DNA of 25,999 nucleotides from a virus, in the IMG/VR virus record IMGVR_UViG_3300023178_002735, positions 1 through 25,999 of that record. One strand, 5' to 3'. This document shows, one piece after another, positions 613 to 24,369 of the stretch (position 1 is its first letter; every line of letters begins with the position of its first letter). Both the position numbers and the translations under genes were made by a program. The notes beneath the pieces were generated by a model that was not told where the DNA came from, ran no database searches, and saw only the letters and a program-made list of their open reading frames with translations.

Positions 613-3600
613 ATGGCAAAGCAAGAAATTGATATCGGCATTGAAGGTAACGACGGCACAGGCGATAGTATTCGCGAGTCGTTTCGTAAAGTAAACGAAA
701 ACTTTCAAGAACTTTATGCTGTATTTGGAATCGGAGGTCAGATATCATTTACTGATCTAAGTGATACACCAAACAACTATGAAGGAAATGAAAATAAAGT
801 TGCCATTGTTAGATCAGACGGTAGTGGAATAAACTTATTAGAACTTGCGTCAGACAACAGTTTAAATGGTGATGCAGATACTATAGGTTTTGACTTTAGT
901 GTTGACGGTAAGGTAATATTAAGACAGCTAGTATCTAAAGTATCTAATGACCCTGCTCCGGTATTAGGTGGACCTTTAGATGCAGCTACACAACCAATTG
1001 CAGCAGTAAGTGTAGACCAAGATGCAGTTGACACTTTTAATGCTGTTCATAGAACTCCAGATAGTCTTATTACAATAGATGATTTAGTTATTAACAAAGC
1101 ATTTGCTGATAGAAACTATCAATCAAAAGACGTTGCAGGCGGTGGTTTACGTTTAGGTGATGAACCAGAAAGTGCAAGCATTTATACATTGACTGCAACT
1201 GGTATTTCTATTGGTAACCTTACTATACCAGGCCACGGATTAACTGAAGCATATAATGGCGCAGGATTTATTTTTAATTCAACAGGCGACGATCCGTTTG
1301 GAGTTGTAACTGGACAAACCTATTATATAAAAATCGTAAATGCTGATGCTATTGCATTATACGAAACAGAGCAGAATGCAATTAATTCTACAGGACGTAT
1401 ACCTCTAGCAGGAGGAACAGGTGTTTTTAGCATTGTTGATGCAGCGTATGATCCGGAATTAGAAGGTAATTGGTTAAGCAATATTGCTCTTCCAAGAAAA
1501 TCTATAGTCAGACGTCAAGGCGATTCAATGACAGGTGCTCTTAACTTGTTTGACCATCCAGGCGAACTTGTTGGTACGGGCTTACCAAATGGACCTGATG
1601 ATTTACAGGCTGCAACAAAACTTTATGTAGATAATGCAGCATCGTTTACTAATGTTAATCTTTATGTAAGCACTAGCGGCGACGACAGAATGATAGGTGT
1701 GCCAAAAGGTAAAGAAGGTAGAGCACCTGCATATTCTTATAGAACTGTTAATGCCGCAGCTCGCAAAGCAGAAGAAATAATGATTGCTGCACCTGCAGAG
1801 CCAGGACCATATATGCAAACAATGACATATGGAACAGGTGCAAATAATAGTGCTATCGTGACTGCCGGTGTTGGAGCACCTAATGCAGAAGCTGTAAATG
1901 CAAGAGCTTTAATTACAGCTAACAAAGAATTTATTGCAAAAGAAGTTACAGGTTATATTGATGCAACATATCCTAGTTTTGCAGGAACATACAATGTTGA
2001 AACTTGTCAACGTGATGTTGGATATATACTAGACAGTGTTACGTTAGATTCATTGTTAGGTGAAAACGCAAACTACCTGTCACGCTGGTCCGGCATAAGA
2101 TATTATTCAAATGTTAGTGCGCAAAAAGCAATTGGTTCTCAACTTGTTGAAACTGTAGCAGGTATAGAATATGCCAAAACTCTTGTAAATCAAATTGTAA
2201 CTGGTACACCTATTACAACGCTATATCAAACTCGTGTTACGCAAGTAGCAGGAACACTTCCTGATCCAGTCGCACAGATAGATGATAGACTAGATGCTAA
2301 GTTTGATATTATTTTAGGAATTATCGATGGTCCGACAGCAGGTGTTCTTAATGCACCGAGTATAGTAGACGGAACAACTGTTTACAAAATTAATGCAACG
2401 AACGGCAACTTAGGATTTATCGACCAAGCTGATCCTGAAAATACAGATATTATTCCAGGTAAAGTAGTTCGTGGGAAAAATTCAGGAGCAATTGGACGTA
2501 TTATTGATTACAGATACGAAGCTGGGCCACGAGTAGTTGGCGTTTCTGAAACAGATGAAATAGAAGTGCAACTACTTGAACCTGTAGAGTTTGAGCCAGG
2601 TGAAGAACTTGAATATGGTAACTATGTAAGAAATACACAAATAAGTATTAGAATTGAATCAGGTATATATGAAGAAGATTATCCAATTCGTGTGCCTGCT
2701 AACGTATCTGTAAAAGGTGATGAATTTAGACGAGTTATTATACGTCCAAAGGATCGTGTTTCACAATCACGCTATGCAAATACTTTTTTCTATAGAGATG
2801 CAGAATTCGATGGCTTAATTTTAGGACCTAGCAGCATCCAGAATATTTCATTTACTCCACAGCCAGATGCATTACGACCTGCTGCTGTTTATTCTATATC
2901 ACAATACTCAACCGATAAGTTAGGTAAAAATGCAGAATTTGATATAACAATAGATAGTAATGGTGCTGTAGCAAATGTAGTAGTAACTAATGTAGGTAAG
3001 GATTTCCAAGCCGGCGAACGTATTGTAATTGATGATGAATTTTTAGGTAATCAAGGTGCAGCAAATGTTCTTATAGAAGTCACTGATGTGCCTGCAGGAA
3101 TTAAGTATGTAAATCCTCTTACTGATGCAGTAGATGGATATTTTGGTTACCACTATTTAACTAAACCAGACAGCTTGGTTAATACAGGATCAGGATATGA
3201 AAATGTAGGTAACTGGGAAACCAATGCACTTACATTAATTGATAATAAAGAATTTATTCAAGAGCAAGTTGTTAACTATGTCGAAACTACATATCCTTCA
3301 CTTATTGGTAGTGCAGGATATTCTAGAGCAAAATGTTCAAGAGATGCTGGACTTATTGTTGATGCACTTATAAAAGATTTCCGTAACGGCGGCAACGAAT
3401 TTAGTTTAGAAGCCCAAGGTCAATACTATGCAGGTGCAGTTGAAGCAGGAACTGAAGATGAAACAGTTGCAGGAATAGAACACATTTACACAATTGTTTC
3501 AAAGTTAATAAAAGGCGAAGCACCAACTACGCTTTACGGACCAAATGGTGATGTTCCACAAACAGGTGTAAATCTAGACTATGCCGTAGATTTGTTTAAT

Positions 3601-5697
3601 GGGTCAGGCGAACCAGATTTTTGGGAAGCAGGCAAAACGTATAGATTAGGAAATGTAGTTAAATTTACAGCCGCACAGGTTGATCGTTATTATACTCCAT
3701 CTAAAGAACATACCTCTGGTACACAATTTGATGCTCCTGAGGTTGCACAATTTTGGAGGGAAATTGACGGACCTACTACTGTAACTAGAAACTTAATTAA
3801 TACAGTACAGTTTGCATTTAATTCGGAATACAATCCACCGTTACGCAATGACGAAATGGATGTGTTCTTAATGAATGATGCAACTATTTTGCGTAATATT
3901 ACTGTACAAGGACACGGTGGATTTATGCTTGTACTTGATCCTGAAGGACAAGTGCTTACTAAATCTCCTTATGTACAAACAGGATCCAGTTTCTCGCAAT
4001 CGGTAAACAAACAAGATTTTAGAGGTGGATTGTTTGTTGACGCATTTGTTGGTAACTCAGCTGTACAAGTAACTGAAAAGGTTGACGGAAGCAACTTTAG
4101 ATTAGCAATAAAAAGTTTAGGAAGTCAATCAGAACCACAAGGATTGTTTGTAAGACGTCCGCAAGTACCTTGTGCATTTTATGTGGACGGAAGACGATTC
4201 CAGGTCAATGCTGTTACTAATTACAACCCAGCAGCAGGCACAGCAGAAATTATCTTAGATCCTAGTTCAAATGATGGAGTTGGATTTACTGGAGTAACAA
4301 GTCAATTATCTACAGGTATTGATTTGGACAGTGTAGGAACATTTGAATTTAACGAAGAAAAGTGTGCTAGAGATTCAGGATACATTATTGATGGTGCAAA
4401 ATATGATACAGTATTAGGAACCAACTATAACAGCACTTACAACGGACTTGCATATCAAAGAGCAACAGGTGACTATGTGCAATCTAATCAACAATCACAA
4501 ACTACCGGTGCTATAGAATTTGCAAGAGATGAAGTGCTTGCACTTACAGAAGTAGATGATTATGTTCTTGCAGAAACTAGAGTTACTGCTGCATTTGATT
4601 CGGTTGTCTCCATAATCCAAATTGATGCAGACAATGCAGATCCATTACTAGCTGATATAACAATCGGCGGAAATAATATTCCTGCACTAGTCTTTCCTGC
4701 GCCTGATAACTTACCAACACCGGCTGCTGAAAATGCAGCATTAAGATTGCAAGCAAACAGAGAATTCTTAGCTGATGAAGTTGTTGCCTTTGTAAATGCA
4801 GGTTCACCTCCTGCAGGATATGATGAAGATAAATGTGCAAGAGATGTAAGATATATTGTTGACGCACTAACATATGACATTTTATATGGTGGTAATAGTG
4901 CAACTATTACTAATGCAAGGGCATATCTTGACGGTGCAGTAGCACAATTACCTGTAGATCAAAGAACAGCAACTGGTGATGCTTATGCACATCTTGCTAC
5001 AGTAGTAGCAACAGTAGTTACAGATGCTACAGGTGTACCAACAGTAGTACCAACAGCAGGAAACGCTACAGGTCAGTCAGCAGCAGGAGCAGCTGGTACA
5101 GCAACAGAAACAGCTATTTTGACACAAAGAATTGGGTTAATTGAAACAGTTGCAAGAGATGCAAATTTAAATTCAGTTCCTGATAATCCAACTTATCCTG
5201 ACTATGAAACTTTAATGAATGATACAGATCTACACGCAGCAGCTAATGACATTGCTGCAAATAGAACTCTTATTGTGCATAGAACAGTACAAAGTGTAGA
5301 TTCGCCGATTCCTATCACCCTACAAACAGCTGGTAACAGAAGTATGTTAGGCAATGACTTTACACAAATTAATGATTTAGGATACGGATTGGTTGCTGTA
5401 AACGGTGCATTGTCAGAAATGGTTAGTATGTTTACATACTATTGTTATGCATCTTACTATAGTAAAAACGGTGCTGAAATTAGATCACTAACAGGCTCAT
5501 CGTGTTATGGTGAATTTGGTCTAGTTGCTGAAGGTGCTGATCCAAACGAAATTCCAGACGGAGTTGAACTTTATGAAGATATGGTTCAACCTGCAAAAGC
5601 TTTTACTAATGATGTAATTTTACATCTTACAGGACCAATAATTGCCGGTGAAGGAGATGTTTTAGTTCAAGATATTACTTTAGCTCAAGGAGTGTAG
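613..5697 (+). CDS. Giant tail-fibre/virion protein, N-terminal part (frame-split)
   Basis: This 1,694-codon frame begins MAKQEIDIGIEGNDGTGDSI and carries the ~36-residue N-terminal module shared with the genes at 9903 and 16588, probably the docking end on the tail. Further along are a fibre-type ATKLYVD motif (~residue 340), a conserved LYVSTSGDDR block, a pectate-lyase/DUF1565-like beta-helix segment (SGIYEEDYPIRVPANVSVKGD region, nt ~2650-2730), and four copies of an EF...KC.RD..YI.DA repeat near residues 430-500, 875-935, 1245-1285 and 1375-1440. It stops at TAG 5695-5697, but typical coding sequence resumes at once in the -1 frame and continues to 9755, so this is almost surely the first part of one ~3,047-aa gene. 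ACGGAG at 599-604 is the ribosome binding site. Extracellular, virion-borne host recognition is the likely role. Confidence 0.85.
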   Translation: MAKQEIDIGIEGNDGTGDSIRESFRKVNENFQELYAVFGIGGQISFTDLSDTPNNYEGNENKVAIVRSDGSGINLLELASDNSLNGDADTIGFDFSVDGKVILRQLVSKVSNDPAPVLGGPLDAATQPIAAVSVDQDAVDTFNAVHRTPDSLITIDDLVINKAFADRNYQSKDVAGGGLRLGDEPESASIYTLTATGISIGNLTIPGHGLTEAYNGAGFIFNSTGDDPFGVVTGQTYYIKIVNADAIALYETEQNAINSTGRIPLAGGTGVFSIVDAAYDPELEGNWLSNIALPRKSIVRRQGDSMTGALNLFDHPGELVGTGLPNGPDDLQAATKLYVDNAASFTNVNLYVSTSGDDRMIGVPKGKEGRAPAYSYRTVNAAARKAEEIMIAAPAEPGPYMQTMTYGTGANNSAIVTAGVGAPNAEAVNARALITANKEFIAKEVTGYIDATYPSFAGTYNVETCQRDVGYILDSVTLDSLLGENANYLSRWSGIRYYSNVSAQKAIGSQLVETVAGIEYAKTLVNQIVTGTPITTLYQTRVTQVAGTLPDPVAQIDDRLDAKFDIILGIIDGPTAGVLNAPSIVDGTTVYKINATNGNLGFIDQADPENTDIIPGKVVRGKNSGAIGRIIDYRYEAGPRVVGVSETDEIEVQLLEPVEFEPGEELEYGNYVRNTQISIRIESGIYEEDYPIRVPANVSVKGDEFRRVIIRPKDRVSQSRYANTFFYRDAEFDGLILGPSSIQNISFTPQPDALRPAAVYSISQYSTDKLGKNAEFDITIDSNGAVANVVVTNVGKDFQAGERIVIDDEFLGNQGAANVLIEVTDVPAGIKYVNPLTDAVDGYFGYHYLTKPDSLVNTGSGYENVGNWETNALTLIDNKEFIQEQVVNYVETTYPSLIGSAGYSRAKCSRDAGLIVDALIKDFRNGGNEFSLEAQGQYYAGAVEAGTEDETVAGIEHIYTIVSKLIKGEAPTTLYGPNGDVPQTGVNLDYAVDLFNGSGEPDFWEAGKTYRLGNVVKFTAAQVDRYYTPSKEHTSGTQFDAPEVAQFWREIDGPTTVTRNLINTVQFAFNSEYNPPLRNDEMDVFLMNDATILRNITVQGHGGFMLVLDPEGQVLTKSPYVQTGSSFSQSVNKQDFRGGLFVDAFVGNSAVQVTEKVDGSNFRLAIKSLGSQSEPQGLFVRRPQVPCAFYVDGRRFQVNAVTNYNPAAGTAEIILDPSSNDGVGFTGVTSQLSTGIDLDSVGTFEFNEEKCARDSGYIIDGAKYDTVLGTNYNSTYNGLAYQRATGDYVQSNQQSQTTGAIEFARDEVLALTEVDDYVLAETRVTAAFDSVVSIIQIDADNADPLLADITIGGNNIPALVFPAPDNLPTPAAENAALRLQANREFLADEVVAFVNAGSPPAGYDEDKCARDVRYIVDALTYDILYGGNSATITNARAYLDGAVAQLPVDQRTATGDAYAHLATVVATVVTDATGVPTVVPTAGNATGQSAAGAAGTATETAILTQRIGLIETVARDANLNSVPDNPTYPDYETLMNDTDLHAAANDIAANRTLIVHRTVQSVDSPIPITLQTAGNRSMLGNDFTQINDLGYGLVAVNGALSEMVSMFTYYCYASYYSKNGAEIRSLTGSSCYGEFGLVAEGADPNEIPDGVELYEDMVQPAKAFTNDVILHLTGPIIAGEGDVLVQDITLAQGV
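5652..5697 (+). other. -1 frame break inside giant fibre gene
   Basis: The upstream frame ends at TAG 5695-5697, while the downstream frame is open from 5652 (after a TGA at 5649-5651) to 9755. The reading frame must therefore shift by -1 somewhere in 5652-5697. Re-adding one base, for example a third G at 5694, joins the two halves without loss. No canonical X-XXY-YYZ slippery heptamer in the upstream frame is visible. A one-base deletion or sequencing error is the simplest reading, with a programmed shift as the alternative. Confidence 0.8.
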
Positions 5698-8600
5698 CAG
5701 TTTCGACAAGTAACACAGGCGGATCTCAAACAGTTTACTTAACTTCTATTAATGGTGCTTTTGATACAACAAATCCAATTGTTAATCAAACAGGACCAGT
5801 TAACTACGGTGCACCAAGCATTCCTGTAAGAGTTGATAGTACAGGTTATAGAAATGATGCAGAAAGTCTTAACATTTATGTATACGATATGAAAGATCCT
5901 CCATCAAATAGATCTGAGTTCGACGTGTACCATCCTGCTCGTCCAGCTTTTGCAAGATATGAAGTTGCTAATGTTGAACAATCTGATCACATACTCGGTT
6001 CATATCAAAATGTAGGTGATGAACCTACAAGCGAAGTAGCTGCTACCTTTACAGGTGGACCTAATGCAACTGCGTCTGAAATCAATGCAAACTTTACAAT
6101 TACAAAAACTATTAATGGTGGTTACGGAGTTATTGTAACTAACGCAGGTTCGGGCTATAGAGCAGACGACTCATTTTTAATTACTGGCGATTTGTTAGGT
6201 GGTGCTACACCAGCTAATGATGCGACTATTACTATTACAGAAGTAGACGGAGGCACACCTACAACTGGAGCAATCAGTGGTGTTACAATTACTGGTACAA
6301 TTGCAGTGGAAGATAGTACACCATACTATACTGGAACAGTATACAAATTAAACTTTAGTACAGGGGATGCACAATTTAGTCAAAATGGTTTGTTGAACGA
6401 AGTTCCTTTTGGTACTATGATACAATATCGTAGAAACCAAACTCACATTATCAGCGATCTAGCAAGACCTGATGTACTTACAATACGTCCTTCAACTGCT
6501 GTGATATTTGACGAAAACCCAAATTTTGTTTACAGATCAATTAGTTTCTTAACATCTAACAGTTTGGGCGAGGCATTACCAGCAAATACTTCTCAAGCAG
6601 GATTTGACGAAGGTTATGACTATATTAGAATGTTAATAGAGAGTTCCAAAGCTCAAGAAACAATAGATACTGTATATGACACTGACGGAACAACGAAACT
6701 TACAGGCGGAACAACTAAAGGTGGCACAGCTGGGGACGTTGTACTTGCTTTACAGCCTGTATTAGATGACAATGAGATTTTTAGATTAAACAATAACCTT
6801 AGAACTCCAATTACTAATAGACCTATTGGATGGAATGTAGATAGTTTAGCAACATTTGCTCCAATCATAACTTGGCAAGGTAAGAAGCATTATGTTTATA
6901 ATGCAAGAGGTGTTAAGGCAACTGCTGTCAACACAAATATTACAAGTACTACACAGGCAAATCCTGTAGTTGTAACATACGATACTGACATTAATTTAGA
7001 AAATGGACAACTAGTTTCATTTAGTGGTGTTGTAGGAATGACCGAATTAAATGGTAATAGCTACTATATAGGAAATGTAACTAGCACAACAGTAGAATTA
7101 TATACTGACAGCGGTTTATCAACAGGGGTAGACGGTACAGTTTTTGCATTACCGGCTACAGCAGGAACATTAAGTACAGTTAGAGATTTAATTGTTCCTA
7201 CAGCAGAAGATAACGATTATCAGCTAGTTGATCTTTTTGATATTGATACTATTAACCAAACTAATGCTACAGGTATACATACTCCTGTCGTTTTAGGTTC
7301 TGAATTAGTTACTATTAGAGCAGGTCTAAAAGCAGGATCACTTGCAGACGTTACAGTTAATATTTCAACTTGTCGTGCAACAGGACACGACTTCCTAGAT
7401 ATTGGTACTGGTGGATTTAACACAAGTAACTATCCGAATGTTATTTTTGGTGAACCAGGAGAAAAAGACGAATCTAAAGAAACTGTTGAACGTGGTAAAG
7501 GTCGTGTGTTCTTTGTAAGTACAGACCAAAATGGTATCTTTAGAGTTGGTAAGTTCTTTAGCGTTGACCAAGGTACTGGTACAGTTACATTTAGTGCGTC
7601 AATTGCGCTGTCAGATGTTGACGGCTTAGGCTTTAAACGTGGTGTTGTTGTTACTGAATTCTCAACAGATACAGCAATGACTGATAATGCATCAGACTCA
7701 GTACCAACAGAAGGTGCTGTTCGTGGTTACGTGAATAGACGTTTAGGTTATGATGTAAACGGTAATCCAGTTTCGAACAAACTAGGACCAGGTGTTCTTG
7801 CTCCAAACGGTGCTGTTCCGATGACGGATGATCTTAATGCAAACAATAACACTATTACTAACTTAAAAGCACCGAATTCAGATTCAGATGCAGCAACTAA
7901 AGCATACGTTGATGCAAGTACTGCTGGCTTAGACGAATTAAAAGATCTACGTTCTATAGAATACAATGATTATGATCAAGGTCAATTAATAGTTGCTACA
8001 GGTTTAAAGAAGCTGATATTATCAGCTGGATCAATTGTAGGCAATTCTTTTGATGTTTGCGATGTTATTACAGGCAATGAATCAGGAGCTACTGGAAATA
8101 TTGTAGATATTGAAGAAGGTCTTGTTGCTAGTGAAGGCGCTATTGTAGTTGTTACATATACCCCAGTTACTGGAGAATTTAGTGACGGTAAACCAGTAGG
8201 CAATTCTCTTCCTGCAGATACAATTACAGCACCAGGAGGCAAGCAAGGTTTAGTAGTAGATGGTCCTGTAGATGAATGGGCAAATGGTGTATATTCTTCT
8301 GCAAGTGATGTTACTGTAACAACTAATAGAATAATCACACAAGATTTGAATGGAGATGTAACCGACCGTTACACTGAAATTGATGTACAGATTAAAGCTA
8401 ACACTATCCGTAATGCAGATATAGCAGCAGACGCAGCAATTGCACAAAGTAAACTGAATTTAAATGCAGCAACTACTAGAGCAAATCCTGTAAACATCAA
8501 TCAAAGTGATTTAGGTGTTGCAAGTTTTGATAGTAATATCTTTACTTCTACTAATGGCTGGTTAACTATTGAAAATGGTGATTTACCTCTTAGAACAATA

Positions 8601-9755
8601 CAACGTATATCAGACGGTACAGTACTAGGAAATTATAATGGAGATAGTTCAGATAATGATATAGACGAAATTCCATTTAGTGTAATTATTTCAGAAGGCG
8701 GCGGCCTTACAGATGATGATTTTGTTACATTAGTACCAAGTGTAAACGATCCTGGCCAGGCACTAATAAGAACAGGTACAGGTACTTATGGCATTTCTAA
8801 TGTTACAACTACAGGTGAAGTCAACAGTCTTGTAAAAACAGATGCATCTGGAAGTATTCAAGTAAACTCACTAATATTAGGTGGTGACTCAAGTTATGAA
8901 GTGTTAAGTCTTGATACACTTGAACTAGTATTTAAAACTCCAGCACAAGGAGAGATACTAAGAGCTGTTGGACAAACTGGTGTATCAGCTGGCGGTCCTG
9001 ATATAGAAATTCCTGGTTGTGTAAATATTGGCTCAACTGGTGTTGCAGAAAGTACACTACAAGGTATATCAAACCTAAACGGTGAAGCAGCATTAGCGGT
9101 AGATTGGATTTACAGTAGCTTTATAGAAGCGCCAGGTGAAAAAGGTGCAGCGTCAACAGGTTTAGCTATTGGTGCCAATACTGGTAAAACAACACAAGGA
9201 GAGGTAGCAATTGTTACTGCTGACGCAGGATCTAGTGCAAGCTTATCACCTGCAATATTTAGTGCATCAGGATTTGTTCCTGATACAGATGACGCATATG
9301 ATATAGGTGGCGCAACAGCAAAATATGCAAATGTATATGCAACTTATTTTAGAGGTACTGCTACTGAAGCTTACTATGCTGACTTGGCAGAGAACTATAC
9401 TGCTGATGCAGCGTATGAACCAGGAACAGTTGTTGTGTTTGGAGGAGAGCAAGAAGTTACAGTTTGCTCTGCTAAAGGACAAACTAGTGTAGCAGGTGTT
9501 GTATCAACTAATCCAGCATATTTGATGAATTCACACGCAGAAGGTGATAATATTGTTGCTCTAGCATTACAAGGTCGTGTGCCGTGTAAGGTAATTGGCA
9601 AAGTTAAGAAAGGCGATATGCTTGTTTCAAGTGCTGTTCCAGGATATGCTATTGTTGACAATAGTGCAAAAGTTGGTACTGTAATAGGTAAAGCATTAGA
9701 AAATAAAGAAGATGGCGATCGCGGCATTATCGAAGTAGTTGTAGGAAAGCACTAA
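5697..9755 (+). CDS. Giant tail-fibre/virion protein, C-terminal part (frame-split)
   Basis: This continuation of the giant fibre gene is in the -1 frame. The first ATG is at 5889, but 5697-5888 already reads as typical fibre protein (YLTSINGAFDTTNP, then YGAPSIPVRVDSTGYRNDAE) with no start codon, so 5889 is probably not a true start. Downstream features are a conserved block containing FFVSTDQNGIFRVGKFFSVD (nt ~7510-7570), the fibre motif NTITNLKAPNSDSDAATKAYVD region (nt ~7848-7916), and a C-terminal domain from YYADLAENYTADAAYEPGTV (nt ~9373) to GIIEVVVGKH. That last domain recurs at the ends of marine phage fibres and loosely recalls Peptidase_G2-type terminal domains; this match is from memory and uncertain. 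The joined product would be ~3,047 aa. Its TAA overlaps the ATG of the next small ORF. Confidence 0.82.
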   Translation, partial: AVSTSNTGGSQTVYLTSINGAFDTTNPIVNQTGPVNYGAPSIPVRVDSTGYRNDAESLNIYVYDMKDPPSNRSEFDVYHPARPAFARYEVANVEQSDHILGSYQNVGDEPTSEVAATFTGGPNATASEINANFTITKTINGGYGVIVTNAGSGYRADDSFLITGDLLGGATPANDATITITEVDGGTPTTGAISGVTITGTIAVEDSTPYYTGTVYKLNFSTGDAQFSQNGLLNEVPFGTMIQYRRNQTHIISDLARPDVLTIRPSTAVIFDENPNFVYRSISFLTSNSLGEALPANTSQAGFDEGYDYIRMLIESSKAQETIDTVYDTDGTTKLTGGTTKGGTAGDVVLALQPVLDDNEIFRLNNNLRTPITNRPIGWNVDSLATFAPIITWQGKKHYVYNARGVKATAVNTNITSTTQANPVVVTYDTDINLENGQLVSFSGVVGMTELNGNSYYIGNVTSTTVELYTDSGLSTGVDGTVFALPATAGTLSTVRDLIVPTAEDNDYQLVDLFDIDTINQTNATGIHTPVVLGSELVTIRAGLKAGSLADVTVNISTCRATGHDFLDIGTGGFNTSNYPNVIFGEPGEKDESKETVERGKGRVFFVSTDQNGIFRVGKFFSVDQGTGTVTFSASIALSDVDGLGFKRGVVVTEFSTDTAMTDNASDSVPTEGAVRGYVNRRLGYDVNGNPVSNKLGPGVLAPNGAVPMTDDLNANNNTITNLKAPNSDSDAATKAYVDASTAGLDELKDLRSIEYNDYDQGQLIVATGLKKLILSAGSIVGNSFDVCDVITGNESGATGNIVDIEEGLVASEGAIVVVTYTPVTGEFSDGKPVGNSLPADTITAPGGKQGLVVDGPVDEWANGVYSSASDVTVTTNRIITQDLNGDVTDRYTEIDVQIKANTIRNADIAADAAIAQSKLNLNAATTRANPVNINQSDLGVASFDSNIFTSTNGWLTIENGDLPLRTIQRISDGTVLGNYNGDSSDNDIDEIPFSVIISEGGGLTDDDFVTLVPSVNDPGQALIRTGTGTYGISNVTTTGEVNSLVKTDASGSIQVNSLILGGDSSYEVLSLDTLELVFKTPAQGEILRAVGQTGVSAGGPDIEIPGCVNIGSTGVAESTLQGISNLNGEAALAVDWIYSSFIEAPGEKGAASTGLAIGANTGKTTQGEVAIVTADAGSSASLSPAIFSASGFVPDTDDAYDIGGATAKYANVYATYFRGTATEAYYADLAENYTADAAYEPGTVVVFGGEQEVTVCSAKGQTSVAGVVSTNPAYLMNSHAEGDNIVALALQGRVPCKVIGKVKKGDMLVSSAVPGYAIVDNSAKVGTVIGKALENKEDGDRGIIEVVVGKH

Positions 9756-14703: not shown

Positions 14704-16575
14704 ATGAGCGAAAAAGAATATATTGTAAGTTTAAATAAAGGTGTAGACTACGAAGCATTCAATGCAGAAATGATCGCAACCACTGGAGCTGGAGCAATTC
14801 CAAGCAGAAGTGCTACTGTAGCAAACGCTCGTCCTGCTTCACAGCGTAATACACATTATATGCTTACAGACGAAGAAGCAGACACATTACGTCAAGACGG
14901 TCGAGTTTTTGGTGTGACGCTACGTCCTGACTTGGATCCTTCATTAATTATATCAAACCGTGCTTTGCAAATATCAAACTTTGATAAAACTACAGAAGAT
15001 AGAGGAGACTTTGTCAATTGGGGCTTAAGAAGAATGAACGCAAAAAACAATCCATATGTAGGCACAGGAGTGTCTGAAGGTTATGGATATACATTAGACG
15101 GGTCGGGTGTTGATATTGTAATACAAGATAGTGGTTTGCAAATAGATCATCCAGAATTTCAAGACTCTGCTGGTAATAGTAGAGTCGTAGAATTAGATTG
15201 GTATGACGGCTTCAGTGGAGGCGGGTCTATGCCAACAGATCATTATGCAGATTATGACGGTCACGGAACTCATTGTGGTGGAATAGCCGCAGGAAAAACT
15301 TACGGATGGGCTAAAAATGCTAGAATCTATGCAGTCAAAGTAGCAGGCTTAGAAGGGTCATTAGATCCAAACAGCGGAATACCTGTTTCTGACTGTTTTG
15401 ATGTTATTAAAGAATGGCATCAAAACAAGCCAGTAGATCCAACAACTGGTGTTAAACGTCCTACAATAGTTAATATGAGTTGGGGATATAATAGATTTTA
15501 TAATAGTGTTATTAATTTGACCTATAGAGGAACGCTATATACTGGTACTGACATTGATTCATCTACAGAGCGTTTAGCGTTTGGACTTGTGCCTTTAGCA
15601 GGAAGCAGTGGGTTTACTTATAAAACTAATGTAAGAGTTGCATCTGTTGATACAGACATTGAAGAACTTATAGACGCAGGTGTACACGTTTGTATTGCTG
15701 CAGGCAATAATTATCATAAGATTGATGTTACTGGCGGCTTAGATTTTGATAACTTTATTGCAGCTGATACAGGTTCAGTATCTTATCATAGAGGATCAAG
15801 TCCTTATAGTGAAAATGCATTAAATGTAGGAAATATAGATAGTTTAGTAACTTCGGATGGTTTTGAACAAAAAGCATCTAGTTCAGAAACAGGCCCAGGT
15901 GTTGATTGCTGGGCTCCAGGTACAGACATAATGAGTGCAGTAAGCACAACAAATAGATTTACAGATGGTCCGTATCCTCAAGATGAAAACTTTAGAATTT
16001 GTAACATCAGCGGAACATCAATGGCTGCACCACAAGTTGCAGGTATGCTATCATTATGGCTACAATTAAATCCAAGTGCTACTCCAGCGCAAGCTAAAAC
16101 ATTTATACAATCTTCTTCGCAGAGTGACAATATTTTATCAAGCGGGCTAGACAATGATTATAGTAACTATAGAAGTTTATTAGGTAGCGGAAATAGATTT
16201 TCGTATAATAAATTTAACAGTTCGGTAAAATTAAGATTAGGAGAAAGCGTAGTTGAAACTGCATATCAACGTCCTACTTTCACACTTTCTGCTAATGGAG
16301 CAAGCATAAATGAAGGTCAAAATTTAATTATAACTTTGACTACAACTAACATTGCTGATGGCACTACTGTACCTTATACAATAAGCGGTGTCCAGATTGC
16401 CGATATTAATGATGCGCTAACTGGAAGTTTTACTATCAGTAATAACACAGCATCAAAAACATTTTTATTAGCATCCGATACAACTACAGAAGGAAATGAA
16501 ACATTCACACTTTCATTAGACAGTATAGACGAAAGTGTAAGTGTTACAATAAATGACACAAGCACTACACCATAA
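14704..16575 (+). CDS. Subtilisin-like serine protease (peptidase S8) with Calx-beta-like C-terminus
   Basis: A 623-aa protein of peptidase family S8. The full catalytic set is visible: Asp142 (VIQDSGLQIDHPEF), His187 (DGHGTHCGG), oxyanion Asn335 (AAGNN) and Ser439 (SGTSMAAPQVAG). Residues ~1-80 (EYIVSLNKGVDYEAF... to ...GVTLRPDL) look like an inhibitor-I9-type propeptide. Residues ~525-618 (SINEGQNLIITLTT, then EGNETFTLSLD) match a Calx-beta-type beta sandwich, a common adhesion module. There is no signal peptide, so it acts in the infected cell or as part of the virion, not as a Sec-secreted enzyme. It sits among fibre genes under a late octamer (14677-14684), with AGGAAG before the ATG. 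Possible roles are fibre maturation or digestion of host surface protein; the sequence does not decide between them. Confidence 0.92.
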   Translation: MSEKEYIVSLNKGVDYEAFNAEMIATTGAGAIPSRSATVANARPASQRNTHYMLTDEEADTLRQDGRVFGVTLRPDLDPSLIISNRALQISNFDKTTEDRGDFVNWGLRRMNAKNNPYVGTGVSEGYGYTLDGSGVDIVIQDSGLQIDHPEFQDSAGNSRVVELDWYDGFSGGGSMPTDHYADYDGHGTHCGGIAAGKTYGWAKNARIYAVKVAGLEGSLDPNSGIPVSDCFDVIKEWHQNKPVDPTTGVKRPTIVNMSWGYNRFYNSVINLTYRGTLYTGTDIDSSTERLAFGLVPLAGSSGFTYKTNVRVASVDTDIEELIDAGVHVCIAAGNNYHKIDVTGGLDFDNFIAADTGSVSYHRGSSPYSENALNVGNIDSLVTSDGFEQKASSSETGPGVDCWAPGTDIMSAVSTTNRFTDGPYPQDENFRICNISGTSMAAPQVAGMLSLWLQLNPSATPAQAKTFIQSSSQSDNILSSGLDNDYSNYRSLLGSGNRFSYNKFNSSVKLRLGESVVETAYQRPTFTLSANGASINEGQNLIITLTTTNIADGTTVPYTISGVQIADINDALTGSFTISNNTASKTFLLASDTTTEGNETFTLSLDSIDESVSVTINDTSTTP

Positions 16576-16587
16576 GGAAAGTAAGAT

Positions 16588-17298
16588 ATGGCAATTCAAT
16601 TAATTAATATCGGTAATGTAGCTAACGACGGCACTGGAGATGATCTTCGTGAAGCAATGATCAAAATAAATCAAAATTTTGAAGAATTAGATTTACGAGA
16701 TGATGAACAAACTACTGCAAGTAATATTGGATTTGGCGGCGTTGGATTATTTTCTAATAAAATTAACTACAATTTACAGTTCAAAAGTCTAAATGCAGGA
16801 AATGATGTTACTATAACTGAAGCAAATGATTTGATTACAATAAATGCTTCGGGAGGTGTTCAAACATTAACCCTGCAATCAGACGTAAACTCGACAGAAT
16901 ACGAAGATGATGCGATTGTAAAAATTGTTGGTGGTGATTATATAGATACTGTAATTATTGATGGAGGCTTAAGAGTTAATTATACTGGGCCTACCAGAGT
17001 GCAAGATGATCCAACTCCTCAGTTAGCAGGATCTTTAGATGCTAACTTACAAAATATTACAAATGCAGCTATTATTTCTGCAAATAGATTTGAAGGTAAT
17101 TTTGTAGGTAATTTGAACGGAACAGTTCACGGTATTGATGTTAGAAATATCAACTCAACTGAATTTGATTTTGGTTCAACATTTGCCGGTATAAATGTTA
17201 CTACTGCATTAAATTGGTTCTTATATTTAAATGATGTAGATTACGGCAGTTTCTCAAATCCAACACCTGTACAAAGTGATTTTGGTACATTTGTTTAA
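16588..17298 (+). CDS. Small tail-fibre/baseplate-type structural protein with shared anchor
   Basis: A 236-aa protein starting MAIQLINIGNVANDGTGDDL. Its first ~36 residues (ending INQNFEELDL) are a diverged copy of the N-terminal module of the genes at 613 and 9903. The middle is beta-rich, and residues ~170-185 (EGNFVGNLNGTVHGIDV) resemble the G-x-V rungs of the neighbouring fibres. It follows the protease by 12 nt, with AAGGAAAG upstream and no promoter of its own, so it is probably co-transcribed with the protease. Because it consists of little more than the anchor plus a short body, it may be a short fibre or an adaptor at the baseplate; this is inference. Confidence 0.75.
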   Translation: MAIQLINIGNVANDGTGDDLREAMIKINQNFEELDLRDDEQTTASNIGFGGVGLFSNKINYNLQFKSLNAGNDVTITEANDLITINASGGVQTLTLQSDVNSTEYEDDAIVKIVGGDYIDTVIIDGGLRVNYTGPTRVQDDPTPQLAGSLDANLQNITNAAIISANRFEGNFVGNLNGTVHGIDVRNINSTEFDFGSTFAGINVTTALNWFLYLNDVDYGSFSNPTPVQSDFGTFV

Positions 17299-17308
17299 TA
17301 CTTAATCC

Positions 17309-17316
17309 GATAAATA
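17309..17316 (+). promoter_or_regulatory. Putative T4-type late promoter (GATAAATA)
   Basis: GATAAATA lies in a 40-bp gap, 22 nt before the ATG at 17339, and is followed by the ribosome binding site AAGGAAA. It would drive the YHYH/He_PIG gene. Confidence 0.65.
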
Positions 17317-17338
17317 CGTTGTATAAGGAAAATCTACT

Positions 17339-17653
17339 ATGACGTTTGACCCATCTGTATTAGGATTGATATCAACAACTGGTTTATTTAAAAGTGAAAC
17401 CATTTTTACAAAAAACCAAAATCTACTGAATGTTACAAGTGACGGTGTTCCATTACCTGCTAGAGTGGATACTAGCAGCATAACTAGACAAGATTATAAT
17501 TATAACTTTGTATACCGAGCAGGTGATAACACTCAATATCCACAAGAAAGTAAGAATTTAGATCTAGGTATCTTTGCCAATGGCGTTTTGTTTAATTTAG
17601 ATATAGGAACAAAATATCTACCTAAATATAAAGATGCAAGTCCTGTAATTTAA
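17339..17653 (+). CDS. YHYH-domain virion protein, N-terminal part (frame-split)
   Basis: This 104-codon frame, starting MTFDPSVLGLISTTGLFKSE, has a good ribosome binding site (AAGGAAA) and a late promoter upstream. The segment LGIFANGVLFNLDIGTKYLP (residues ~76-95) corresponds to the early part of a YHYH domain, where a beta strand ending in a NGV turn is typical. The frame stops at TAA 17651-17653, and the rest of the same domain continues immediately in the -1 frame. This is therefore very unlikely to be a complete 104-aa protein; it is the N-terminus of a ~1,467-aa gene product. Confidence 0.78.
   Translation: MTFDPSVLGLISTTGLFKSETIFTKNQNLLNVTSDGVPLPARVDTSSITRQDYNYNFVYRAGDNTQYPQESKNLDLGIFANGVLFNLDIGTKYLPKYKDASPVI
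17632..17653 (+). other. -1 frame break inside YHYH domain gene
   Basis: The downstream frame opens at 17632 (after TAA at 17629-17631) and the upstream frame closes at 17653, so the shift must fall in this 22-bp window. Adding one T to the TTT at 17649-17651 restores a continuous frame reading SPVILTFNKNHFPN. A homopolymer deletion, either real or from sequencing, is the simplest explanation. No canonical slippery heptamer is visible. Confidence 0.82.
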
Positions 17654-20600
17654 CATTCAATAAAAATCATTTTCCTAATCTTTTTAATTATGATAGCGAC
17701 TACGGTAATATAACAAACGGAAAGTATGTTTACAGATCCGGAAGTTTTCTATCTAATGGATGGAATTATGCAAATGTTTGGGGTAGTAAAGTATACTATA
17801 GCGAAACTCAATATAACAATGACTATTACAGACATAGTGATGGACATAGTAAAATATTAGGATTTTGTTTCGATGGGTATCCTATTTACGGACCTTATGG
17901 ATATACAGCGGCAACAGATAGTAATTCAGGCACTTCGTTAATTAAGTCAAGCTATAGAAAAAAATTAGGCGATAGTCATAGAAATCCTTTATGGAAGTAC
18001 GATAGCAAGTTAACTCTTACAGATGGTAGCGAAATTACACTTACAGCAGGATCTTTTTTAGAAGATTATGAGTATAGTAGATCAAAAAGCAGTCTTGATG
18101 AATTTAATGGACGTTATTGTGTTACACCAGATTTTCCTGATGGAACTTATGCGTACTTTTTAACATTTGAAGATGAAACATTATCGGAACCTGCTTATCC
18201 GTATATAGTTGGATCTAGCACAAAACAACAAAGGTCTTTCCCTCAGCCATTATCAGAAGAAGCAATTTTAAGCCAATCTCTTTGGTCAATAGCAACCGGC
18301 GCAAGAATTACAACTCTTATAGAAAGAAATGTTGTTTATATTCCTCTTCCTTTAAATAATTTTAATGGAATAACTGTTGAATTAATTAGTGGTTCTATAC
18401 CTAATGGTTTAAGATTTGAAGGAAATGTAATTGTAGGTACAGTATACGAAGTTTCATATAATAAAACATTCAATGCTGTAATTAGAGCTAATTACGAAAA
18501 TACATTTGAAGATAGAACAATAGAAATAGTTGTCACAGGACCTGATGCACCTGAATGGATAACTGCACAAGGATTATTACCAGTTGGTCCTAATAATACG
18601 TTTTATATTTTAGACAGTGAAATTGTTGACTTTCAATTGACGGCTATAGATAGCGATATAAGTGCAGGAGACAGTTTAAGTTATTATATAGCAGATGGAG
18701 ATGGAGAATTACCTCCCGGCATAACACTTACTGAAGACGGTAGAATATATGGTATGACTGAGCCTCTTTTAGCATTAGATAAAAGATACGCAGGCGGCCG
18801 TTATGATATGGCACCATTTAGTGCATTACCAATGGATTTTGCTGCTGCAAGTGATTATTACGGAACACGAGAAGAAGGAACTATTAATCCTGATAGTAAT
18901 TTAATTAAATTAAATAGGTACTATCCTTTTGCAGTAACAGTAACAGACGGAGAAACCTTTGTAAAAAGAGAATTTAGGATTTTTGTTGTAGGTGATGATT
19001 TCTTAAAAGCAGACAATACTGAAATGGAGGCAGGAACTACCCTATTTAATGCTGATGCTACACACGTTAGAAATCCTACCTGGATAACTCCAAGAGATTT
19101 GGGTTATAAGAGAGCAAATAATTATACAACTATTTCATTAGATGTTATAAACAATCCTACATTAGAAGGTGCTATTACGTATACATTAGAAAATGTAAAT
19201 GACGATAATAGCAAAAGCGAGCTACCTCCAGGACTTAGTATTGATAAAAACACAGGTGAACTATACGGCGTTATACCTTATCAAACAGCAATAGTACAAG
19301 ATTACAAGTTTACAGTAAGAGCAACAAGACGTGTTTCCGATTTAGAAACACTCTCGATATTTGGCACTTATTATGAGGATACGCTCTTAGGTAAAACAAG
19401 TTTTAAAATTTATAAAACTGATTTAACTGGTACAGCTGATGGCATAAATGATTTATTTGAACTTGTTGGAAAAGAAATTCTATTAGAAGATAATGTATAT
19501 ACAGTTATTAGTGTAGATGATAGAAATCCAGATTTTGATGTGATTGTTATAGATCAATCTCTAGCACCTAAAATTAACTTATTAGCATCCAGAACGTCTT
19601 CAGCAGGACAAGATCATTTTTATGTTGCTCGGTTATCTGAAAAAGATAAAAGTAAATATCAAGGCAGAACACTAAAATTTGCAGAAAATGAAGAATATGT
19701 CATTGCAGATATAACACCTTATATTGAATATAATATTAGACAAACTAACCCATCAAATGATGATATATTGCCATCCCAATCTCCAACAATTATGACTATA
19801 GGTGAAAACTATTATCTTGGGGATTTTGCTATCTGGCCTAGTTCAGCAAATGGTAATGATCGTATATTCAAATGTGTAGAAGCACATACTATGAATCAAT
19901 TTTTAGATGACGACGGTATAGCTCAACCATTATTTGATCAAACAAAATGGGTAGAAGTTGCAGAAGACCTAAGTGGATTAAGTATAGCTGATAGGGTAGC
20001 AGCAACAAAACAGGCATTAGATAAAGTTTACGGAACCTCATATGTAAGAAGAGTTATACAAGGTGTTTGGAACATAAGACTACCTAGTACTAGCCAAACA
20101 AGAATTATAGAAAATATAAGGTCTTTCTTTGTAGGGGTTGATAGTACAGAATTTAATATCGAACTTGTTAGAGATAATGAAGACAGAATTTTACTAGATA
20201 GAAATTTATCAAGACAAATATCAGGTGGAAATAATTATGGTATAGGATTATTTAAAAATGATTTCTTCTTTAAAAACATAATTGTTACAAGTGAAGATCC
20301 TGTCAATATTCCATCTAGCATAAAAACATTTGAAATCAAAATTTTAGGTGAAGTAGATACAGAAATTACTTGGATAACTAGTAGTGACCTAGGAATAATT
20401 CCTGCAAACTTTGATAGTACCTTAAAGGTTGTTGCTCAATCAACAGTGCCTGATACTAAAATGATTTATACAATTACAGATGGAAAACTTCCAAATGGTT
20501 TGACATTAAGTTATACTGGAGAAATTTTAGGCGCAGCAAAACAATTTGGGACATTAGAAAGTCCTGGTTTAACAATTTTTGAAAATAAAACAGTAACTTG

Positions 20601-21741
20601 GGACGGTAAAATTCCTGGCGATACAACATTTGATAGAGATTACAGATTTACTGTAAAAGCCAGAGATAGATTCAATTTCAAATCTATTGAAAGAGAGTTT
20701 CTTTTAAAAGTTGAAGATTTAGATAACACCCAATATACAGATATTGTAGCCCGACCTATGTTACCTAGACAACAAAGAATACTTTACAAAGATTTTACAA
20801 GTAACACAGATGTTTTTGTTCCTAGTTATATTTACAGACCCACTGATATTAAGTTTGGTGTGCAAAAAAATATAGAAATGCTAGTTTATGCAGGTATCGA
20901 AGCAACTGAAATAGATCGATTTGTAGCTGCGGCTGCAAAAAATCATAAAAGGAAAAAATATATACTAGGTGATTTTAAAACTGCAAAAGCGATCGAACCA
21001 ACAACTAAAGAGATAGTTTACGAAGTTGTATACATAGATGTTATAGATCCTGCTGTGCCTGCAACTGGTGAAGTAAGGAATAGTTTTAGAATAAACACAC
21101 AGCGTGATATTACAGTAGATAGTATACAATATGCTGGAAAAGATGATGTAACAAAATACGGTTTAGGCACAGACGAACTTCCAGTTTATGGACGACAAAT
21201 TGTAAAATTTGTGTTTGCGGAAAATGAAACACTTGTAATTGAAACAAGATCTGGTGATGATGTTGGTGTAAATGTAGACAACAGCGATTTTGAGTTAGAA
21301 ATAAGAAATGGTAATGATTTTAATGTTGTTTTACAAACAAGTCCTGCAGAATCGATGAGATTACGCCCTTCACCTACTAATACAATTAAGGCAGATTCAG
21401 ACGCAATAAAAGTAAGTAATTCTAAAGACGATGTAAGATACTTGTCTAATATTCCTAATATGAGAAATCAAATTAAACAAATAGGAAAAAATGAGAGAAA
21501 CTTTTTACCTTTATGGATGAGAACGGCACAAGAAGGATTTTATGAATTAGATTATGTGAGTGCTATTCCTGTATGTTATTGTAAGCCAGGATATTCAGAT
21601 GATATATTAAGACTCATAAATAAAAGTGGTTTTGATCCAAAAGATATAAATTTTGATATAGACAGGTACATTGTAAAACGTACACAAAATTCTAATGACG
21701 AACAGTATGTATTGTTCGCAAATTATCAATTCAATGTTTAA
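17650..21741 (+). CDS. YHYH and He_PIG-repeat virion protein, C-terminal part (frame-split)
   Basis: An open frame of about 1,363 codons continuing the gene begun at 17339. There is no ATG for the first kilobase; the first formal start is a TTG at 18637, in the middle of a beta domain, so a start there is not credible. The N-terminal part completes a YHYH domain: DGHSKILGFCFDGYPIYGPY (nt ~17839-17898), then FNGRYCVTP..PDGTYAYF (nt ~18100-18160), with YAYF in place of the literal YHYH. Four He_PIG-like putative Ig repeats follow, marked by (L/I)P(P/N)G(I/L)..-G-...G (nt ~18390-18440, 18710-18755, 19225-19270, 20485-20535). The C-terminus (LPLWMRTAQEGFYELDYV, then CYCKPGYSDDIL and QYVLFANYQFNV) is one I associate with marine T4-like virion proteins. 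The likely role is a tail or baseplate adhesin. Confidence 0.8.
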   Translation, partial: LTFNKNHFPNLFNYDSDYGNITNGKYVYRSGSFLSNGWNYANVWGSKVYYSETQYNNDYYRHSDGHSKILGFCFDGYPIYGPYGYTAATDSNSGTSLIKSSYRKKLGDSHRNPLWKYDSKLTLTDGSEITLTAGSFLEDYEYSRSKSSLDEFNGRYCVTPDFPDGTYAYFLTFEDETLSEPAYPYIVGSSTKQQRSFPQPLSEEAILSQSLWSIATGARITTLIERNVVYIPLPLNNFNGITVELISGSIPNGLRFEGNVIVGTVYEVSYNKTFNAVIRANYENTFEDRTIEIVVTGPDAPEWITAQGLLPVGPNNTFYILDSEIVDFQLTAIDSDISAGDSLSYYIADGDGELPPGITLTEDGRIYGMTEPLLALDKRYAGGRYDMAPFSALPMDFAAASDYYGTREEGTINPDSNLIKLNRYYPFAVTVTDGETFVKREFRIFVVGDDFLKADNTEMEAGTTLFNADATHVRNPTWITPRDLGYKRANNYTTISLDVINNPTLEGAITYTLENVNDDNSKSELPPGLSIDKNTGELYGVIPYQTAIVQDYKFTVRATRRVSDLETLSIFGTYYEDTLLGKTSFKIYKTDLTGTADGINDLFELVGKEILLEDNVYTVISVDDRNPDFDVIVIDQSLAPKINLLASRTSSAGQDHFYVARLSEKDKSKYQGRTLKFAENEEYVIADITPYIEYNIRQTNPSNDDILPSQSPTIMTIGENYYLGDFAIWPSSANGNDRIFKCVEAHTMNQFLDDDGIAQPLFDQTKWVEVAEDLSGLSIADRVAATKQALDKVYGTSYVRRVIQGVWNIRLPSTSQTRIIENIRSFFVGVDSTEFNIELVRDNEDRILLDRNLSRQISGGNNYGIGLFKNDFFFKNIIVTSEDPVNIPSSIKTFEIKILGEVDTEITWITSSDLGIIPANFDSTLKVVAQSTVPDTKMIYTITDGKLPNGLTLSYTGEILGAAKQFGTLESPGLTIFENKTVTWDGKIPGDTTFDRDYRFTVKARDRFNFKSIEREFLLKVEDLDNTQYTDIVARPMLPRQQRILYKDFTSNTDVFVPSYIYRPTDIKFGVQKNIEMLVYAGIEATEIDRFVAAAAKNHKRKKYILGDFKTAKAIEPTTKEIVYEVVYIDVIDPAVPATGEVRNSFRINTQRDITVDSIQYAGKDDVTKYGLGTDELPVYGRQIVKFVFAENETLVIETRSGDDVGVNVDNSDFELEIRNGNDFNVVLQTSPAESMRLRPSPTNTIKADSDAIKVSNSKDDVRYLSNIPNMRNQIKQIGKNERNFLPLWMRTAQEGFYELDYVSAIPVCYCKPGYSDDILRLINKSGFDPKDINFDIDRYIVKRTQNSNDEQYVLFANYQFNV

Positions 21742-21745
21742 GTGT

Positions 21746-21753
21746 GATAAATA
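21746..21753 (+). promoter_or_regulatory. Putative T4-type late promoter (GATAAATA)
   Basis: GATAAATA begins just after the stop of the YHYH gene and lies 21 nt before the ATG at 21775, followed by the ribosome binding site AGAGGAA. Confidence 0.65.
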
Positions 21754-21774
21754 CTTAACTAAAGAGGAACAAAA

Positions 21775-22431
21775 ATGGCTAGTAACATTATATCAACAAC
21801 GATTGACGCAACTTATCCAGTAGCAGGTGTTGACAACGACACTCAAGGGTTTCGTGATAACTTTCAAATTATCAAAGATGCATTAACAACTGCAAAAAGC
21901 GAGATTGGTGCATTACAAGATCAAACTTGTAAGGTAACAAATAGCGCCGAGGGTGTTGTAGAAAATAATTTTAATGAAAGTAGTATTCTTGATGCATCTT
22001 TAGACAATGTTACCTTTAGATTAAAACCAAACGAAAATCAAAATTTATTGCAAACAGTAAATGTAGATGTTGGTAGAGGACATTACCAAGTTTATACTAT
22101 CGGTGCTGATATAGGTTCTGACCAAACAATAGATTTTTCTTTACAAAACTGGCCAGTTCGTAATACAAATGATGGAGTAGCAAGAGTTACTTTACATTTG
22201 TATGGCAACGGCAATAATAACACTGCTAAATTAATGGCAGCAAATAGTGGCGCAATATTTAAAACAAGTGCTTGGCCAACTCCTGTAGGAGATGATTCAA
22301 TAGACGATTCAGCATCTGTTGTTGTAACTAGTCAAACACAACCTACTATCATAGATCTATGGAGTTATGATAGTGGTACAACTGTTTATGCTAATTATTT
22401 AGGTTCGTTTGCTAAGTCATCAGATGCATAA
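21775..22431 (+). CDS. Virion structural protein (short tail-fibre/baseplate type)
   Basis: A 218-aa protein starting MASNIISTTIDATYPVAGVD. The N-terminal region, with NDTQGFRDNFQIIKDAL (residues ~21-37), is a more distant version of the anchor found at 613, 9903 and 16588: a polar-glycine loop followed by an (R/F)..(I/F)..NF..(L/I) amphipathic helix. The remainder is beta-rich and includes LYGNGNNNTAKLMAANSG and a C-terminal SYDSGTTVYANYLGSF strand. I recall close relatives annotated as structural proteins in T4-like cyanophages. It has its own late octamer and AGAGGAA ribosome binding site. The stop overlaps the ATG of the next gene (ATGCATAA). Confidence 0.75.
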   Translation: MASNIISTTIDATYPVAGVDNDTQGFRDNFQIIKDALTTAKSEIGALQDQTCKVTNSAEGVVENNFNESSILDASLDNVTFRLKPNENQNLLQTVNVDVGRGHYQVYTIGADIGSDQTIDFSLQNWPVRNTNDGVARVTLHLYGNGNNNTAKLMAANSGAIFKTSAWPTPVGDDSIDDSASVVVTSQTQPTIIDLWSYDSGTTVYANYLGSFAKSSDA

Positions 22432-22669
22432 TAATCCTTTAATAGATACTTTAGATGATTTATCAATAAATGAGATTGAACAGAAAATTGTTATTTTACA
22501 AAGAAGATATTTTTCTGCAACAAATCCATCTGTTCAATCTCAAATCGTAAACTTTTTGAATATATACAAAGAAGAATTATCAACACGTAGAGCTATAGAG
22601 GCTCAAAAACAAAGACAAAATCAAGATGATGGTGAAAATTCACTTGACAATTTGATTAATGTGTCATAA
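22424..22669 (+). CDS. Conserved small coiled-coil phage protein
   Basis: An 81-aa protein starting MHNNPLIDTLDDLSINEIEQ. I chose the ATG at 22424, which overlaps the preceding stop as ATGCATAA; an in-frame TTG at 22409 would add five residues but is less likely. The protein is almost wholly helical and charged, with heptad-like spacing across IVILQRRYFSATNPSVQSQI and YKEELSTRRAIEAQKQRQ, and ends in an acidic segment DNLINVS. Similar small proteins lie beside structural genes in T4-like marine phages; none has a function I can name. It shares an operon with the 218-aa structural gene and lies 9 bp before the DnaE-like gene. Confidence 0.7.
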   Translation: MHNNPLIDTLDDLSINEIEQKIVILQRRYFSATNPSVQSQIVNFLNIYKEELSTRRAIEAQKQRQNQDDGENSLDNLINVS

Positions 22670-22678
22670 AATACAATT

Positions 22679-23236
22679 ATGCTTATGAGAACAGACGAAC
22701 TAGGAATACCACGATTCTCTAATCGCGATTTAATCGATATGATCTATTCAGGTCAATCAGATAAAGTTCACGTGGTTCTATGTAATCCCTCAGACGAAAT
22801 AGATAAGTTTAATAGTGTAATGGAGGAACAAGGTTTATCGCCATTACAAAAGTATATCCCATTAGATGTAGATCAAAAGACTTTTGACGGTGTATGTCAA
22901 AGTGAATGGTTTATGCCTGAAGAATATAAAGCACTTGCTATAGAAGAATGGCTATTCGCAAAAGTAATGGAGGAAAAACAACACGCTGGTGTTGACTTTG
23001 TTTATAACTCTGAAGAATGGATGCGAGTAGAACAAGAACTAGAAGCGTTTCACGAACGTGGTATGTATGATTTATTGCGCTATATGGTTTACCTTGTAGA
23101 CTTTATGCGTGAAAATGGTATTGTATGGGGCGTAGGACGTGGTTCAAGTGTAGCAAGTTATGTACTATATTTGATTGGTGTACATAGGATAAATTCAATT
23201 CAATATGAACTAGATTGGCGTGAGTTCTTACGATAA
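22679..23236 (+). CDS. DnaE-like protein lacking the catalytic segment (DNA pol III alpha NTPase-domain-like)
   Basis: A 185-aa protein whose C-terminal ~60 residues (MYDLLRYMVYLVDFMRENGI, GVGRGSSVASYVLYLIGV, YELDWREFL) line up with the start of the bacterial DNA polymerase III alpha (DnaE) palm, where the equivalent segment reads GPGRGSGAGSLVAY...ERFLNPER. The phosphate-contacting GxGRGS loop is present at residues 152-157. The protein ends at WREFLR, just before the place where DnaE carries its catalytic PDxDxD aspartates, so it cannot be a working polymerase by itself. The N-terminal ~120 residues (RFSNRDLIDMIYSGQSDKV onward) are reminiscent of the region between PHP and palm. Neither the ATG at 22679 nor the one at 22685 has a good ribosome binding site. 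The stop lies inside the next late promoter. Function unknown; nucleotide or DNA binding is an inference. Confidence 0.7.
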   Translation: MLMRTDELGIPRFSNRDLIDMIYSGQSDKVHVVLCNPSDEIDKFNSVMEEQGLSPLQKYIPLDVDQKTFDGVCQSEWFMPEEYKALAIEEWLFAKVMEEKQHAGVDFVYNSEEWMRVEQELEAFHERGMYDLLRYMVYLVDFMRENGIVWGVGRGSSVASYVLYLIGVHRINSIQYELDWREFLR

Positions 23237-23239
23237 ATA
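23232..23239 (+). promoter_or_regulatory. Putative T4-type late promoter (GATAAATA) overlapping a stop codon
   Basis: GATAAATA begins inside the last codon of the DnaE-like gene; its TAA at 23234-23236 is part of the octamer. It lies 24 nt before the ATG at 23264, followed by the ribosome binding site AAGGAGA. Confidence 0.65.
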
Positions 23240-23263
23240 TACGTATATAATAAGGAGACAATT

Positions 23264-23665
23264 ATGTCAAAAGTAGCAGCCGGAAAAAAACAGCATAGAA
23301 GTATGCGAGGCAAAACAGTAGATATGGATTTGTTACGAAAGCGTAATGAATTAACACCAGCAGTAGGTAATGCAAAAGTTAATGCAAGAGGTGATGAAAT
23401 TGGTCCTGGCGGACAAATTGTAAAGAAGCGTGAGGATATTGTTGCGGAACATTATGCTACTGCTAATGCATCAGCTCGTAAGCAGCCTGTTGAAGCAGTT
23501 GTAGAAGAACAACAACCTGTTGAAGAACCTGTAGTAGCAAAGCAAACAAGAACTACTAAGAAATCAGCAGCACCTGCAGAAGTAGCAGCAGAAGAAGCAG
23601 CACTTGATGCAGAAGAAGAATGGGTCGAAGACGAGGACGGCAATTTTGTAAAAAAAGGTGAATGA
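23264..23665 (+). CDS. Conserved phage protein with basic head and acidic Ala/Glu tail
   Basis: A 133-aa protein starting MSKVAAGKKQHRSMRGKTVD. The first ~65 residues are basic and look well folded or conserved (MDLLRKRNELTPAVGNAKVN, then GPGGQIVKKREDIV). The second half is low-complexity, rich in Ala, Glu, Val and Gln (residues ~73-110), and ends in an acidic segment EEEWVEDEDGNFVKKGE. I recall near-identical N-termini in T4-like cyanophage proteins annotated as hypothetical or virion-associated. Expression from a strong late signal (GATAAATA plus AAGGAGA) fits a virion or assembly role. There is no enzyme motif, signal peptide or membrane segment. Its TGA overlaps the start of the oxygenase-like gene. 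Confidence 0.75.
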   Translation: MSKVAAGKKQHRSMRGKTVDMDLLRKRNELTPAVGNAKVNARGDEIGPGGQIVKKREDIVAEHYATANASARKQPVEAVVEEQQPVEEPVVAKQTRTTKKSAAPAEVAAEEAALDAEEEWVEDEDGNFVKKGE

Positions 23666-24369
23666 TGTATAGTGTAAAGGAATGGAAAAAGTTTTATCAT
23701 CCCTACACTGAATATCATAGCAGTAAGTTTGATATGAGAGAACTACCAGAACATTATGATGTTGACTTAGAAAAGCTTGATAAAGGTATTCAAAATACTT
23801 TGAATAACTTTGAAATGTATCAATATCAAACTCCAAATGGAGATTTTTGGCCAGGATACTTTGGATTAAATTTTAAATCAACACCAGATGCAAAAAATCC
23901 TTTACAAGATGGAAACTTTAGTAACAGTTTAGCAAGTGACTGGAGCAAAGATGATTACATTGATCCTAATTTTACAGAAAAAACAGATGCTTGGTTTTCT
24001 TATTTAGATACTATTGTAAATAAATTTAGAGGTACTGTCACTCAACTTAAATTAATCAAATTAGAAGCAGGATGTAATATAGGCATTTACCCATCAGATG
24101 ATAATCCTTATGCACACCATATAGATTATCCTTGGTATCAAGGTGTAAGATTACATATTTGTCTGACTCCAGATATTGAATATGTGTGGAATATTTTAGG
24201 CACAGATCATTATGCAGAAAGAAATGGTAAAATTTATTTTTTAGACGCAGGAAAACCTCACGACGCAAAAAACAAGCAAAACAATGTAGATAGGTATGTA
24301 CTTAATATCAATCTAATTCCGATGAGAGACAATAGTATCGATTATCAAATCGAAAACTCTTTATTATAA
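23665..24369 (+). CDS. 2-oxoglutarate/Fe(II)-dependent oxygenase-like protein (Asp/Asn beta-hydroxylase type)
   Basis: A 234-aa protein with the double-stranded beta-helix pattern of Fe(II)/2OG oxygenases. Counting from the upstream ATG at 23662, the iron-binding HxD is His153-Ile-Asp155 (AHHIDYPW), the distal His is His200 (FLDAGKPHDAKN), and Arg211 (NVDRYVLNINL) sits where the 2OG carboxylate is bound. The segment VRLHICLTPD between them resembles the RLH(I/L)-L strand of aspartyl/asparaginyl beta-hydroxylases (PF05118). Such enzymes hydroxylate protein side chains or small molecules; the substrate here is unknown. Two adjacent ATGs exist (23662, 23665); I prefer 23665 because AAGGTG at 23655-23660 is too close to the first. 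It overlaps the upstream stop and lies 14 nt before the co-chaperonin gene. Confidence 0.75.
   Translation: MYSVKEWKKFYHPYTEYHSSKFDMRELPEHYDVDLEKLDKGIQNTLNNFEMYQYQTPNGDFWPGYFGLNFKSTPDAKNPLQDGNFSNSLASDWSKDDYIDPNFTEKTDAWFSYLDTIVNKFRGTVTQLKLIKLEAGCNIGIYPSDDNPYAHHIDYPWYQGVRLHICLTPDIEYVWNILGTDHYAERNGKIYFLDAGKPHDAKNKQNNVDRYVLNINLIPMRDNSIDYQIENSLL

Follow-up and report, generated by a model that had tools for sequence, protein, structure and literature searches.

The coding sequence at 613-9755 of the window (the whole stretch of 25,999 bases from a virus record that was analyzed) raises the question of whether one fibre gene or two genes are present and, if there is one, how it came to be broken. 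When open reading frames were called, a frame from 613 to 5697 (frame A) and an ORF from 5889 to 9755 (1,288 aa counted from its ATG) were obtained, in agreement with the coordinates and frames given in the preliminary description. The frame of the second ORF (frame B) ends at 9755 and is open upstream to 5652; thus, frames A and B overlap at 5652-5697. The features of this gene and of a second broken gene are as follows:

613..5697, + strand: 5' part of the fibre gene in frame A, 1,694 codons from ATG to the TAG at 5695-5697; T4 gp9/10-like N-terminal domain followed by repeated CxRD modules
5652..5697, + strand: stretch in which both frames are open; near 5690 the window lacks one base that its relatives have
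5697..9755, + strand: 3' part of the same fibre gene, in frame B (-1); because homology already begins at the junction, the ATG at 5889 is not a real start
17339..17653, + strand: 5' part of another virion gene that is also broken and is baseplate wedge-like by PHROGs
17656..21741, + strand: 3' part of this second broken gene, continued in a different frame; contig L022 has the gene intact, with 1,471 aa from stop to stop

Viral contigs were searched for homologues with one query from the end of half A (frame A) and another from the beginning of half B (frame B). The search found 20 loci from 19 distinct viral contigs with identities of 32-85 %. Judged by identity pattern, the 19 contigs represent about 11 lineages, fewer than the contigs because several of these are copies of the same virus. 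A single uninterrupted ORF crosses the junction in each of the 19 contigs, and halves A and B matched it in order and in one frame. The complete homologues measure 2,622-3,047 aa between stops. The closest intact ones, L003 and L002, are 80-85 % identical to the window and measure 3,047 and 3,041 aa between stops; the combined halves, at about 3,047 aa, are of the same size. Both halves also matched PHROG 9851 (tail fibre, 1,092 columns), where residues 1572-1653 of half A correspond to profile positions 557-639 and residues 557-682 of half B follow in order at positions 950-1078. The collinear match of the two halves to one ORF and to PHROG 9851 is far beyond chance, and frames A and B are two halves of one fibre gene.

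The ORF caller output, taken as it stands, describes two separate genes with the second starting at ATG 5889. When the halves of the window were entered as separate rows in the protein alignment of the junction, which is collinear, the last residues of half A and the first of half B fell in nearly adjacent columns, and the stop at 5697 was absent from every homologue. Frame-B homology therefore begins directly after the frame-A stop, at about 5697 and not at 5889, which speaks against a second gene. The Met of 5889 is likewise not conserved, being replaced by Ser, Ala, Phe or another residue in many homologues, and an AGGAGG-like site was not seen upstream of this ATG. The outcome that the preliminary description had named beforehand as speaking against a single gene, homologues terminating at this point with a new, conserved start near 5889, was sought by alignment and not found. 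As a start near 5889 is not conserved in the alignment of the relatives, two separate genes were rejected, and we give this reading next to no probability.

The site of the break was located by DNA alignment across the junction, in which the window has a single-base gap near 5690 relative to the two closest relatives. Together with the 19 intact contigs, this gap upholds the earlier proposal of one fibre gene carrying a single -1 shift within 5652-5697. Nonsynonymous change was low on either side of the junction and also in the 64 codons that separate the stop from ATG 5889 (pN/pS for 5697-5888 of 0.23-0.30 against L003 and L002; 0.15-0.29 for other segments of the gene). This stretch would be untranslated in a real and long-lived short form, yet its pN/pS is low, so the break should be either very recent or not real.

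A second virion gene, at 17339-21741, is split in the same manner by the loss of one base at about 17646. In this case a near-identical contig from another metagenome (L022) could be compared, which is 99.93 % identical to positions 15262-24173 of the window and contains the gene intact as one ORF. Over 8,913 bases, five substitutions and one indel separate the two sequences, and this sole indel lies at the break (about 17646). Of the contig's two frame breaks, at least one is therefore missing from its nearest sister. As to the five substitutions, four were clustered within 10 bases (21911-21920). Among the other window ORFs that could be compared, none showed a further break of this kind.

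The preliminary description had listed a sequencing or assembly error, a natural one-base deletion and programmed recoding as options for the break. Error is the best supported of them: a 26-kb contig in which two large virion genes have each lost one base, with every homologue intact, is best explained in this way, and the window shows the signs of an indel (intact homologues, one base short at one point, a further break absent from near-identical L022). We consider it probable, with good confidence, that the break near 5690 is such an error in an otherwise ordinary fibre gene; most likely the base was lost in the data and not by mutation in the sampled virion. Indels are a known cause of split genes in viral metagenome contigs, and 22.78 indels per 100 kb remained in polished long-read assemblies of a mock community (PMC6487183). 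As in those viral metagenome genes, one-base indels split the gene calls in the window, although the sequencing platform of the window may differ. A possible but unlikely alternative is that the sampled virus itself lost one base and, as a defective or altered strain, makes a fibre cut short at 1,694 aa. Such a loss is what the sequence as given shows, one-base deletions do occur in nature, and exact DNA patterns found no near-identical contig over 5690 in the viral collection, the nearest homologues being about 80-85 % identical, so that a recent deletion at 5690 keeps some probability. Against it, the 3' part, including the 64 codons from the stop to ATG 5889, is still under purifying selection in the old frame, so any deletion would have to be very recent, and, with the break at about 17646, a single genome would have to carry recent null alleles in two of its virion genes. 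That a strain-specific deletion left a viable phage with the 1,694-aa truncated fibre, for example as a host range switch, is in our judgement very improbable.

Programmed -1 frameshifting, which would produce a short and a long fibre, draws on the 45-base overlap of the frames and on a shift in the usual -1 direction. However, no slippery heptamer of the form X XXY YYZ was found in the overlap (5652-5697). The four such heptamers of frame A lie upstream of the overlap (at about 861, 2784, 5163 and 5166), and a shift at any of them would therefore run into the frame-B stop just before 5652. Nor was a notable RNA structure detected downstream, as the 111 bases at 5690-5800 folded no better than shuffled sequence (z -0.38, pseudoknots not included). 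The absence of a frame break from all 19 homologue contigs, in which nothing of the kind is conserved, counts strongly against recoding. This option was rejected for want of a heptamer in the overlap, of RNA structure and of conservation, and we regard it as extremely unlikely. Of the options listed earlier, error is thus preferred, chance deletion is retained at low probability and recoding found no support.

Concerning the protein itself, a T4_gp9_10_N domain (PF07880) was matched at residues 3-39 (27.4 bits; cut-off 25) and the N-terminus matches phrog_677 at 5e-11. Half A also matches PHROG 4527 and 5342 (tail fibre and short tail fibre families). By these domain and family matches, we assign the gene product to the tail fibres of T4-like phages with a gp9/10-type N-terminus. 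In the phage, an uncultured marine T4-like one, the gene is presumably intact and would encode a single protein of about 3,050 aa, whose gp9/10-like N-terminus may attach to the baseplate and whose remainder would form the fibre.

Half A also contains four copies of a helical module at 1870-5178 with the motif CxRD..YIxDA...D...G.N. The copy number of this module varies among the relatives, L004-L007 being without about 290 residues (1240-1529 of half A). The first copy gave a weak match to the Pfam Phycobilisome family (22.6 bits; cut-off 22.2), and an AlphaFold2 model of the module is all-helical (pLDDT 82.6).

The same T4 gp9/10-like N-terminal domain opens three genes of the window (at 613, 9903 and 16588), which would fit a common attachment part in several fibre proteins. 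A subtilase gene (PF00082) lies amid the fibre genes at 14704-16575, and its Synechococcus phage counterparts are 30-37 % identical. Its length between stops is 623 aa in the window, 518 aa in L024 and L028 and up to 1,353 aa in some relatives (L023, L025 and L026); thus, the C-terminal part varies. The neighbouring genes, which encode other gp9/10-type proteins, the subtilase and a baseplate-like protein, are consistent with a structural module from a marine T4-like phage. Further downstream, the 185-aa protein of 22679-23236 matches only part of a DNA polymerase III alpha domain (PF07733). All relatives that cover it carry the protein in this short form, and similar stretches are present in large phages such as PA5oct.

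For annotation, we suggest treating the locus as a single fibre gene that probably contains a one-base error, and not as two genes or as a recoding site. Its value is mainly as a caution, and the fibre adds a new member to a known kind. At the DNA level the window matched no annotated phage. The tblastn search gave weak similarity to cyanophage tail fibres, and PHROG 9851, 5342 and 4527 are each matched by the window fibre only in segments of the profile. Among annotated proteins, the tail fibre Syn1_101 of Prochlorococcus phage Syn1 (YP_004324472.1; 3,380 aa, 10,143 bp; Kyanoviridae, marine T4-like) is, like the gene of the window, a very long single-ORF tail fibre adjoining other virion genes. 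It aligned with the 3' region of half A (residues 47-258 of the query 4213-5694, 28 % identity, E-value 3e-10). Unlike the window gene, Syn1_101 is intact in one frame, and only a part of it aligns, at low identity. The preliminary description had called the joined gene one of the largest of such a phage. This holds for its size but not for its being unusual, Syn1_101 being 10,143 bp long; with annotated relatives of up to 3,380 aa, about 3,050 aa is a usual size for such a fibre.
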